This document shows, piece by piece, positions 18,119 through 21,950 of a stretch of 36,264 bases of DNA. The position numbers and the translations under genes were made by a program. The notes beneath the pieces were generated by a model. It searched no databases and had not been told where the DNA came from. It saw only the letters and a program-made list of their open reading frames with translations. Position 1 is the stretch's first letter. Each line of letters starts with the position of its first letter. Origin of the DNA: Sulfurospirillaceae bacterium (lineage in GTDB: Bacteria; Campylobacterota; Campylobacteria; Campylobacterales; Sulfurospirillaceae); contig JAQUVE010000010.1 in NCBI GenBank assembly GCA_028693565.1, forward strand, positions 1 to 36,264, read 5' to 3'.

Positions 18119-18805
18119 GTTAAAATCTTTTTTATAACGCAAAATTTCTTCGGTTTGGCCGATAACGACTAAAACATCACCTGTATCAAGTTTATGATTG
18201 AATCCTTCTGTGATAAAAATAAACTCTTTTTTTAGCTCTTTATCATGGATACCCACTATCAATAGGTTATAGGCATCGTTGGGGTAAATATCGTTAATCA
18301 TACATTGATTGAGGAGTGAATTTTTGGTTATAGTGATTTGTTCCATATTAAGATCATGGTAGCCAAAAACAGTTGCATCTATAACGTTCATAACTTCAGG
18401 TTGGGTAATGAGCTTATAAATCTTTTTTCCACTGATTTGATAGGGGTCTAATATTGTACTAGCACCCGCAATTTCAAGCTTATGAATGGTATCTTTCGTA
18501 TGGGTAATAGCAATGACATGCAGTGTGGGGTCGAGTGCCTTTACGGAAAGTATTAAAAAAACGTTTTTTGCATCATCATCGAAAAGCGTAAAAATAAAAT
18601 TAACATTTTCTCCAATGCCTTCTTTGAGTAACACATCATCTGTATAATCTAGAATTTTAAGGTTAAAGCCTAATTTTTCAGCGGTAGGAATCAGTGAAGC
18701 ATCATTGTCAATGAGCGTAAAATCATACCCTTTTGCCATAAGTTGAGTGCTAATTTCAATAGCTGATTTTGTAAAGCCAAAGATGAGTATTTTTTTTGAT
18801 TTCAT
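18113..18805 (-). CDS. Stand-alone RCK (TrkA-like) protein with altered nucleotide site
   Basis: A 230-residue soluble protein with an RCK_N Rossmann fold (1-~130) and an RCK_C domain (~140-230, ending VVIGQTEEILRYKK). Such proteins gate K+ channels or transporters by binding nucleotides. The glycine motif is altered: IFGFTKSAIEI stands where GxGxxG is expected, though the acidic LIDND at the end of strand 2 is kept, so NAD(H) binding may be lost or changed. Its start overlaps the stop of the K+ channel gene by four bases (ATGA), and the channel has its own intact RCK domain. I infer that it assembles with, or regulates, that channel. Confidence 0.88.
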   Translation of the reverse strand: MKSKKILIFGFTKSAIEISTQLMAKGYDFTLIDNDASLIPTAEKLGFNLKILDYTDDVLLKEGIGENVNFIFTLFDDDAKNVFLILSVKALDPTLHVIAITHTKDTIHKLEIAGASTILDPYQISGKKIYKLITQPEVMNVIDATVFGYHDLNMEQITITKNSLLNQCMINDIYPNDAYNLLIVGIHDKELKKEFIFITEGFNHKLDTGDVLVVIGQTEEILRYKKDFNL

Positions 18806-20394
18806 TTTAAAGGCCTTTTATCACTTTGCTTTTTAAGAATATTGATATGGTGCTTTTTCCCCATGATAATCAGCATATCTTCTTGACAAATAAGAAAATC
18901 ACTTGGTGGATTAAAATAAAATATTTTATCATCAATAGTGTACGTTAAAAAATCTGTCGGTTGTATGCCTTGACGTACAATTCCAAAAAGCAATAAGCGT
19001 TTTTCTTGCAATTTTAAAACACTTAGGGGTTGGTTTACATAATAAGATTTTTCATGAATTTTAAGTGATTCAAATACAACGCCAGTATTTTCGGTAAGCA
19101 TTTCATTCAATGCTGCATATGAAATAGGCTGGTCAACATATTGTAATCCCATCAGTCCAATGGTCTCATCTGCACTAAGCGCAAAGTTCGCTCCCGCAAG
19201 TAAATATTTTTTCTTATGATGGCTTTTAACCACACGAGCAATAATATCAACATCTTTACTAAGACTTCGTGCTGTCAGTGTAATAAATACATTCATCTCG
19301 TCGCTGTTCGTAACACAGATGACTTTAGATGCACGTTTTCCTACACCTAGCTGTCCTAATAGCTTACTTTTGGAGGCATCCCCTAAAATACCGATCATGC
19401 CTCGTTGATTTGCTAATTTTATTTTTCCAGCGTCCGTATCAACAATGACAACAGCATAGCCATCATCATGAAGCATTTTAGCGACCACTTCACCGACTCT
19501 GCCATAACCGCATACGAGAATATAGTTTTTAAGTCGTTCAATATCAGCCAAGGTACGACTCTCTTTAAGTTCGACAAGTTTAGTTTGAAAAGAAGAGACA
19601 ATAATCGATGTTAGAAAAGCTAAGATGGCGACACCAAAGATAATCAGAAGCATTGAGATGACCATACCTTCAGTGGTAACGGGTACAATATCGCCATAAC
19701 CAACCGTTCCCATCGTAACAATTGACCAGTAAACAGCATCAAAAAGAGTATTGATTTTTGGATTGACGTTGGTTTCAAAAATATAAATTGCTGAACTTCC
19801 CGTAAAAATAACAAACCCAGCAAAAATCGCTAATGTAAAAAGTTCAAATTTTTTCTCTGAAATAATGGTGGTGAATGTTTTCATACTCCTTGCATAGCGA
19901 AAGAGTTTAAAAATACGAAATAAAAGAAAAATTCGTAAGAAACGAAGTGGACGGTAACTTGGTAAGATAGCTAATAAATCAATAATTGCTAACGGTGAAA
20001 AAATGTACTCTAGTTTCTTAGAAATGATACTTCGAATTGTCTGAAAGAGTGAAAATGTGACACGATTATCGAGAGCATATTCATAACGCTCAAGAAATAT
20101 TTTATGATTGTCTGAGTATATCCACAATCGTAGGAGATATTCTATTACAAATATAACCAGTGAGGCATTGATAAAAAAATCCATAAAAGGATGAAGTTCA
20201 GGGGTTTTAACTTCGTAGAGTAAAAAAAGAACGCTTAAGATAACCAATACTACCATAAAGAGGTCAAAATAAAATTTTAATTTTGACGTGGGGTGTTCAA
20301 GAAATGTTCTACAAAATTCTTTAGTACGGCGATAACGTTTTGAGCTATCTATAAAATAAGCGAAACGCACTAATAGTGATATAAAAAAATCCAC
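18802..20394 (-). CDS. Voltage-gated-type K+ channel with RCK domain (Kch-like)
   Basis: A 530-residue inner-membrane channel. Six helices are visible: S1 (~43-65), S2-S3, an arginine-rich S4 (RPLRFLRIFLLFRIFKLFRYAR, of which RFLRIFLLFRIFKLFR is the core), S5, the pore with the selectivity filter TVGYGD, and S6. An RCK_N domain follows with an intact nucleotide motif (LVCGYGRVGEVVA) and acidic VIVDTD, then RCK_C. It resembles the H. pylori potassium channel HpKchA in type. The start is GTG 20394 (GTGGATTTT) with AAAGG 6 bases upstream; an ATG two bases upstream is out of frame. A terminator separates it from the selenoprotein gene, so it is probably transcribed on its own with the second RCK gene. 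Confidence 0.9.
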   Translation of the reverse strand: MDFFISLLVRFAYFIDSSKRYRRTKEFCRTFLEHPTSKLKFYFDLFMVVLVILSVLFLLYEVKTPELHPFMDFFINASLVIFVIEYLLRLWIYSDNHKIFLERYEYALDNRVTFSLFQTIRSIISKKLEYIFSPLAIIDLLAILPSYRPLRFLRIFLLFRIFKLFRYARSMKTFTTIISEKKFELFTLAIFAGFVIFTGSSAIYIFETNVNPKINTLFDAVYWSIVTMGTVGYGDIVPVTTEGMVISMLLIIFGVAILAFLTSIIVSSFQTKLVELKESRTLADIERLKNYILVCGYGRVGEVVAKMLHDDGYAVVIVDTDAGKIKLANQRGMIGILGDASKSKLLGQLGVGKRASKVICVTNSDEMNVFITLTARSLSKDVDIIARVVKSHHKKKYLLAGANFALSADETIGLMGLQYVDQPISYAALNEMLTENTGVVFESLKIHEKSYYVNQPLSVLKLQEKRLLLFGIVRQGIQPTDFLTYTIDDKIFYFNPPSDFLICQEDMLIIMGKKHHINILKKQSDKRPLK

Positions 20395-20419
20395 ATAGAA
20401 CCTTTATACGCAAAACAAA

Positions 20420-20447
20420 CTTCACATGTAAAATTTCACATGTGAAG
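20420..20447 (-). terminator. Intrinsic terminator after the SelW-like gene
   Basis: A perfect 10-bp stem (20420-20429 with 20438-20447) closes an 8-base loop. On the minus strand it is followed by TTTGTTTTG. It lies 6 bases past the selenoprotein stop, in front of the K+ channel gene. Confidence 0.75.
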
Positions 20448-20453
20448 CTGTTA

Positions 20454-20699
20454 TTAATATCCAGCAGCTTTAAGTAAAGCCGTTATCTCACCGACTTCAG
20501 GAAAGCGCTCAACAGATGTTCCTATCTTTTCGGTTTTTGAAAAGATGAGTTTATCTTCTACTAAGACATCAAAAAAACCACCTCGTTTTGGGACGAGTGA
20601 AATGACAGCTTCAGGGAATGCACTTTGTATTTCATCTTTCGCACGGAAAGCTTTTGGCATGTATCCTCACTTAGTACAATAAAAAATAGTTATATTCAT
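20454..20699 (-). CDS. SelW-like (Rdx family) selenoprotein, CxxU motif, TGA decoded as Sec
   Basis: An 81-residue thioredoxin-like redox protein. The part after the TGA (68 residues, ATG at 20660) matches SelW/Rdx proteins: AKDEIQSAFPEAVISLVPKR, then GGFFDVLVEDKLIFSK and the end EVGEITALLKAAGY. On its own it lacks the N-terminal strand and redox motif. Reading upstream in the same frame through TGA (20669-20667) gives M-N-I-T-I-F-Y-C-T-K-U-G-Y, which is the family YCxxUGY motif with Cys8 and Sec11. ATG 20699 has AAAGGA 5-6 bases before it, and lies 9 bases after the stop of the EAL-HDOD gene. A hairpin at 20636-20650 fits a bacterial SECIS. The downstream ATG would make a protein without an active site. 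Function is likely thiol redox; the partner is unknown. Confidence 0.9.
20636..20650 (-). promoter_or_regulatory. Candidate bacterial SECIS hairpin
   Basis: On the minus strand CUUUC (20650-20646), loop CGUGC and GAAAG (20640-20636) form a perfect 5-bp stem. The loop begins 22 bases after the TGA and has G as its second base, within a GU. Known bacterial SECIS elements lie directly after the UGA with a small apical loop containing G near its start at about 16-37 bases. SelB binding itself is not shown. Confidence 0.65.
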
Positions 20700-20708
20700 G
20701 ATGATCCT

Positions 20709-21950
20709 TTAGTTTTGATAGTGATTACTCTCTTCTACAAAAAGACTTGCCCGAGTACACGCTTCTAGCAGAGCTTCTTTGCTAAAGCATGGCTTATGCC
20801 CTAGTGCATTAACGGTTGCCTCAATGTCCTTTGCATGGTTCATTTCAACGGCAATTTGTAAAAATTCCCCTAGTATACCTTTACGATATAAAATGGCATC
20901 TTGCATATCATTGTCAAGATTCAGGTCATGCAAAAAATCTTCCATTGGTATCGCCAAGTATGCGTCAATCAATGATAAACTACCCGTTAAAAACGCTTTA
21001 TTGGCTAACGGTGAGTAGCCTTCGCACATTAAAGCTAACTCTTCCATCAGTTTTGCACGAAATTTTGCACTATTAAACAGCTCTTCCCCAAATGGTTTTT
21101 TTTCAGGACTATCATAGAGAAAAAGCCCTAGCCATGAAAGTAATTTTTGTGGTCCAAGTAGGGTTATCATCTGTCTAATTTCGGTAATTTTTGATTTAAA
21201 GTGGTAGGCTCCAGAATTAAGGTGACGTAGAAGGCTATACACAAGGTCAGGACATGTGGAGAGTTTTTGAGTGAGACTACTAGGTTCATCATTTTCATGA
21301 ATACAATTAATAAGCCTGATAGCATTTTGGGCATTGGGTTCAAATCTTTTGCCACTCATAATAATAGGTTTTTCAAAAAAATAGCCTTGAAAAAATTTAA
21401 AATGTAACTTTCGACAGTGTTCATACTCTTCAAATGTTTCTATTTTTTCCGCAAGCAAATCAATAGGATAATTTTTTAATTTTTCTATCGCTCCGCTTAC
21501 GTGCTTAATACCGATAGCAAGAATATCGATTTTAATGATGTCGATATAAGGGAAAAGTGGCTCATAATTTCTCATCATTGTATCAGAACAATCAAAATCA
21601 TCTAATGAAAAGCGATATCCTAAAGAGTGCATGTATTTTCCACGCTCAATCAATGCCAAGCTTACGCGTGTGTGTTCTAAAATCTCAAAGCGAAAATTTT
21701 CTTTAGGCAATAGTAGTAGCGTATCACTAAATAAAATAGCTTCATCTACATTGATAAAGCCTATCTTTGAGCCGATAATAGGGCTCACTCCTAAATTATG
21801 TACGAGATTAACAATAACACGAGCTGTTGCTAAAGCGCTACTTTGAAATGTCGCAACATTATTGATGTCACATGAGCGGTATAAGAGCTCATATGCAAAG
21901 CATTTCGCGTTAACATTAAAAATGGGTTGTCGACCAATGTATGCTGTCAC
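20709..21950 (-). CDS. EAL-HDOD signalling protein (YuxH type)
   Basis: A 413-residue protein with an N-terminal EAL-like domain (1-~200) and a C-terminal HDOD domain (~205-400). The EAL domain keeps fold landmarks (YIGRQPIFNVNAKCFAYELL, SLDDFDC, IDIIKIDIL) but lacks several catalytic residues (for example DDFDCSD in place of DDFGTGYS), so it is probably a c-di-GMP-unresponsive or regulatory domain rather than a phosphodiesterase. HDOD domains regulate motility and signalling without the HD metal site. The start is GTG 21950 with AAAGG 5 bases before it, behind an extended -10 element. The SelW-like gene follows after 9 bases and is probably cotranscribed. Confidence 0.87.
   Translation of the reverse strand: MTAYIGRQPIFNVNAKCFAYELLYRSCDINNVATFQSSALATARVIVNLVHNLGVSPIIGSKIGFINVDEAILFSDTLLLLPKENFRFEILEHTRVSLALIERGKYMHSLGYRFSLDDFDCSDTMMRNYEPLFPYIDIIKIDILAIGIKHVSGAIEKLKNYPIDLLAEKIETFEEYEHCRKLHFKFFQGYFFEKPIIMSGKRFEPNAQNAIRLINCIHENDEPSSLTQKLSTCPDLVYSLLRHLNSGAYHFKSKITEIRQMITLLGPQKLLSWLGLFLYDSPEKKPFGEELFNSAKFRAKLMEELALMCEGYSPLANKAFLTGSLSLIDAYLAIPMEDFLHDLNLDNDMQDAILYRKGILGEFLQIAVEMNHAKDIEATVNALGHKPCFSKEALLEACTRASLFVEESNHYQN

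Follow-up and report, generated by a model that had tools for sequence, protein, structure and literature searches.

The locus described here raises the question of whether a small open frame on the minus strand, which begins at ATG 20660 and encodes 68 residues, is the whole of a protein, or whether it is the downstream part of a gene that starts 13 codons earlier and runs through an in-frame TGA read as selenocysteine (Sec). A sequence-only reading of the window (the whole stretch of 36,264 nucleotides that was analysed, from a Sulfurospirillaceae bacterium) had argued for the longer gene; its coordinates and its motif were correct, and it left unnamed the strand, which is minus. From our follow-up analysis, we conclude that the locus is almost certainly a functional SelW/Rdx selenoprotein gene of a Sulfurospirillum species (the genus taken broadly, and assigned from relatives), with Sec at the UGA and an 81-residue putative thiol/selenol oxidoreductase as its product. 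Its gene structure, its motif, the conserved bacterial Sec insertion element (SECIS), the machinery genes and the predicted fold are established by computation and are taken up in turn below.

The minus strand of the selW locus reads ...AACTAAAGGATCATCATGAATATAACTATTTTTTATTGTACTAAGTGAGGATACATGCCAAAAGCTTTCCGTGCGAAAGATG.... The reading frame is interrupted by one TGA only, and the ribosome binding site AAAGGA and an ATG that follows the preceding stop by 9 bases were both found as the sequence-only reading had described them (Table 1). With the TGA translated as U, the product is MNITIFYCTKUGYMPKAFRAKDEIQSAFPEAVISLVPKRGGFFDVLVEDKLIFSKTEKIGTSVERFPEVGEITALLKAAGY (81 aa), in which Y-C-T-K-U-G-Y occupies residues 7 to 13, directly after the strand at residues 2 to 7; the prediction that in-frame extension across the TGA restores a CxxU motif is thereby borne out.

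Table 1. Features of the selW locus and its surroundings, in coordinates of the window
Feature	Position	Strand	Basis
Coding sequence of selW: 81 codons, one of them the UGA read as Sec, and a TAA stop	20454..20699	-	Open frame with TGA read as U; Pfam Rdx, TIGR02174 and NF041051 scores
selW start codon, ATG	20699-20697	-	Sequence
selW stop codon, TAA	20456-20454	-	Sequence
In-frame TAA ahead of selW, doubling as the stop of the upstream gene	20711-20709	-	Sequence
Shine-Dalgarno sequence AAAGGA, 5 nt 5' of ATG 20699; overlaps the stop codon of the upstream gene	20705..20710	-	Sequence; sites in homologues
UGA codon, predicted to specify selenocysteine; codon and residue 11, U of CxxU	20667..20669	-	TGA in all 69 locus copies and in 37/37 genomes
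ATG expected as the start in standard annotation; here codon 14, an internal Met	20658..20660	-	M, R, K, L or Q in homologues
Predicted bacterial SECIS, apical hairpin: stem CUUUC 20650-20646 / GAAAG 20640-20636, loop CGUGC 20645-20641	20636..20650	-	Covariation
EAL + HDOD domain protein, upstream neighbour, 9 nt before the selW ATG	20709..21950	-	Pfam EAL, HDOD
K+ channel/TrkA-N protein, downstream neighbour of selW	18802-20394		
Intrinsic terminator-like hairpin with T-rich tail, just past the selW stop	20418..20449	-	14-pair stem

Even taken alone, the 68-residue frame is a SelW/Rdx homologue, as had been claimed (39.1 bits against Pfam Rdx, PF10262, over profile positions 14 to 73). Reading through the TGA raises the score to 66.8 bits and extends the match to positions 1 to 73 of 74 (cut-off, 22.6); this gain, together with the retention of the TGA in every gene-bearing genome among the relatives, upholds the view that the extension is not a product of chance. 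The read-through protein also matches TIGR02174 (SelT/SelW/SelH; 48.7 bits, cut-off 34.2) and the full 70-position profile of the Campylobacterota model NF041051 (SelTWH_Campy, an NCBIfam equivalog); its 84.9 bits against the latter fall just short of the curated cut-off of 88, as do the scores of the rest of the genus (76 bits for the window copy and 73 to 77 for other members in the genome search). The closest named protein match, from a Sulfurospirillaceae MAG, is 84% identical, and sequence comparison with proteins of solved structure picks out mouse SelW and several SelW relatives from bacteria.

AlphaFold predicted a SelW fold for the product with a pLDDT of 95.9 when given a nine-sequence alignment (the window protein and related loci); this model replaced a poor single-sequence one (pLDDT 62). 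It has strands at residues 2-7, 32-37, 43-47 and 50-54 and helices at 14-27 and 71-78. In structure alignments over the full length, six crystal structures of bacterial SelW-related proteins (2FA8, 2P0G, 2OJL, 2OBK, 2OKA and 3DEX) share the fold along the whole chain with Z scores of 13.1 to 13.6; mouse SelW (2NPB) also does so across its whole chain (Z 8.7), and thioredoxins score about 7. Identity between the window protein and these SelW-related structures, 2NPB included, is 24 to 31%. In the Agrobacterium protein (2FA8), Cys occupies the position at which the window protein would have Sec. Because the first strand and the CxxU motif are encoded upstream of ATG 20660, the standard call deletes the active site and one strand.

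The TGA is conserved among homologues. An Rdx gene is present in 37 of 100 relatives' genomes and contains exactly one in-frame TGA in all 37; a class-wide search (298 genomes) returned 98 matches in 95 genomes, with one TGA in 95 of the 98 matches. The three matches that lack it are two neighbouring second copies with CxxC and one disrupted copy. Both CxxC paralogues, which read YCSSC and YCNVC in the same motif and each adjoin a TGA-bearing copy, provide the comparison with Cys homologues that had been proposed, and they place Cys at the U position. UGA and CxxC copies thus lie side by side in two genomes (L096/G319 and L097/G223), and a third (L098, G178) carries two tandem UGA copies of SelW. 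In the disrupted copy (L095, G157), the codons preceding the Sec site and the body of the gene lie in different frames, which points to a pseudogene with a frameshift or to an error in the sequence.

The motif was, without exception, Y-C-x-x-U-x-Y at the 69 loci examined (some genes among them having been fetched twice), of which the 30 Campylobacter-side loci were chosen by a YCxx-stop pattern, so that in these the flanking Y and the start alone count as independent. Nearly all homologues have an ATG, GTG or TTG ten codons before U, with an AAGGA- or AGGAG-type site 5 to 9 nt upstream. Four Campylobacter-side loci were scored as “GTG at 8 codons” because the nearest start codon was taken; their proteins have Met ten codons before U (KMEVK...). 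What precedes the downstream ATG in homologues is therefore not unrelated sequence, as they share the start, the ribosome binding site and the CxxU motif. The ratio pN/pS was 0.46 in the nine codons before the UGA and 0.31 in the body of the gene, against 0.71 upstream of the start, a pattern that indicates constraint on both the nine codons and the body.

To the observations of the sequence-only reading, we add a covarying hairpin just downstream of the UGA, which has the characteristics of a bacterial SECIS. The putative element consists of 5 bp and a 5-nt loop and lies 16 nt downstream of the UGA. In an alignment of 45 distinct sequences from the UGA to +48, which is gap-free, 100% of the stem cells are paired and four of the five pairs show two-sided changes, the innermost being seen as C-G, A-U, U-A and G-C. 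The covariation score of 0.590 compares with 0.189 for shuffles (0 of 500) and with no more than 0.247 when the hairpin was slid along the alignment, and two G's in the loop (columns 26 and 28) are invariant. Both members of the innermost pair are third codon positions (of TTC and GCG in the window), so that constraint on the protein is not a ready explanation for it. The same hairpin is present in the single-sequence fold; the folding energy of the region was no better than that of shuffles (z 1.24), and the case for the SECIS thus rests on covariation. An Rfam scan of the window gave no match at the gathering score. Cravedi et al. described the Epsilonproteobacterial SECIS as a 5/6-bp hairpin that lies a few nucleotides past the UGA and has an invariant guanosine in its loop (PMC4607533), and the window hairpin agrees with theirs in its stem and in this guanosine.

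The genome, which comprises 2.78 Mb in 232 contigs and is 99.6% complete, also encodes the machinery for Sec, and all of the genes that had been proposed as a check, namely selA, selB, selC and selD, were found. A tRNA-SeC gene (selC) with anticodon tca lies on contig C179, and selA is at C119:139-1449 (517.8 bits, cut-off 267.9; Pfam SelA, 436.7 bits). The first 40 residues of SelB (MNYIIVGTAGHVDHGKT...) are encoded directly downstream of selA, where C119 ends, while the remaining ~550 residues (the C-terminal 548 aa), with the SelB winged-helix and beta-barrel domains, are at the end of C133; selB is thus in two pieces, split by a contig break, and selA, selC and selD are whole. The selD gene (C203:11174-12088, minus strand; 355 bits) has an in-frame TGA of its own (AAGUAAKLGPGDL), and so do two genes for FdhA (formate dehydrogenase alpha), one of which reads ...ARIUHSST.... 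Together with selW, these bring the candidate selenoprotein genes of this genome to at least four. In most members of the same genus selD is stop-free, a switch between Sec and a sense codon within one genus. SelB-wing_2 (PF09106) had no match in eight relatives; the SelB of the window genome matches SelB-wing_3 and Beta-barrel_SelB and not SelB-wing_2, so that this absence is uninformative. In one MAG (G017, loci L038/L060; rated 99% complete), selA, selD and tRNA-Sec were not found, despite a UGA-containing selW with an intact SECIS. A single missing contig could explain this, as the Sec genes lie within about 75 kb in relatives, or selW could have been orphaned.

Competing accounts of the locus have to be weighed against this evidence. 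If the true protein were the 68-residue frame, the upstream part would be a leader or a chance extension; the match of that frame to Rdx would be accommodated, and GAGGA, 3 nt before ATG 20660, offers a weak ribosome-binding-like sequence. However, this ATG is not conserved, homologues having M, R, K, L or Q as the aligned residue, whereas the upstream start and its ribosome binding site are, and the shortened protein would be without the first beta strand (residues 2-7) as well as CxxU. We have rejected the downstream start on grounds of conservation and regard it as highly improbable. Nor do we give appreciable credence to a pseudogene in which a nonsense mutation turned a Cys or Trp codon into the TGA, or to the TGA being a sequencing error. 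Standard annotation would indeed see a broken gene here, but the TGA recurs in the genomes of all 37 gene-bearing relatives and in all but three of the 98 matches across the class, purifying selection acts on the remainder of the gene, and the SECIS covaries; it was the conservation of the UGA that led us to reject this account.

Granted an intact 81-codon gene, the UGA might still be decoded otherwise than as Sec, by ordinary suppression or by insertion of Trp. Against this stand the Sec machinery genes in the genome, the SECIS hairpin, and the position of U at the family-defining redox site, where the two stop-free paralogues have Cys. We therefore consider decoding as anything other than Sec to be extremely unlikely.

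If the UGA is read as Sec, translation would start at ATG 20699, and the SECIS hairpin 16 nt past UGA 20669 would recruit SelB with Sec-tRNA(UCA), the latter made by SelA using the selenophosphate of SelD, such that Sec is inserted. We infer that this insertion takes place in the present strain. The 81-residue product would then fold into a thioredoxin-like domain whose first strand is followed by Cys8-x-x-Sec11, and it may be a small thiol/selenol oxidoreductase that alternates between a Cys8/Sec11 selenenyl-sulfide and the reduced form; it is the family, the motif and the fold that suggest this activity.

The surroundings of the gene offer one speculative lead. At each of the 16 distinct loci examined in the genus, an EAL-HDOD gene lies closely upstream of selW, and at 14 of them the K+ channel gene lies downstream; the EAL-HDOD linkage was not found at the tested loci of other genera. 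Given the terminator-like hairpin after selW, the likely transcript comprises the EAL-HDOD gene and selW. It is conceivable that the EAL-HDOD protein encoded directly upstream has Sulfurospirillum SelW as its redox partner or sensor, but gene linkage is no proof of a functional link, and we think the idea a long shot. If it were true, the selenol would feed a signalling protein and not serve as a general reductant.

SelW itself is not new to the class. The protein of C. jejuni was predicted in 2005 (PMC1242214), and translation through its UGA was shown in 2025 by Ribo-seq, termination-site profiling and proteomics (PMC11955535). C. jejuni SelW (CJnc60, 80 aa) is of the same family and size as the window protein, and its UGA is read by tRNA-Sec (PMC11955535); the two differ in genus, and the window gene is preceded by one for an EAL-HDOD protein. 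Identity to the window protein is 41% for a named Campylobacter homologue (L064), a figure that does not refer to the C. jejuni protein itself. More widely, bacterial SelW-like selenoproteins were reported to have hardly any Cys homologues, or none, in organisms that contain Sec (PMC1794560) and to be among the most widespread selenoproteins of ocean samples (PMC2398784). A literature search on Sulfurospirillum selenoproteins turned up nothing specific, and the name Sulfurospirillum is absent from the main text of PMC4607533. As SelW has already been predicted, described and shown to be translated in the class, the present locus is an additional and solidly supported member; to call it hidden, as the sequence-only reading did, is apt for this locus and not for its kind.

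The expectation that standard annotation would truncate the protein to 68 residues or call a pseudogene is one that we accept; according to Cravedi et al. (2015), Epsilonproteobacterial SelW genes are often missed entirely by annotation (PMC4607533). What the analysis yields is, in the first place, a corrected gene model, the standard 68-aa call being one that loses the active-site residue and the first strand. It also yields a clean comparative data set for the family, with a covarying SECIS inside the coding region and a redox position that, in this class, is nearly always Sec and rarely Cys.
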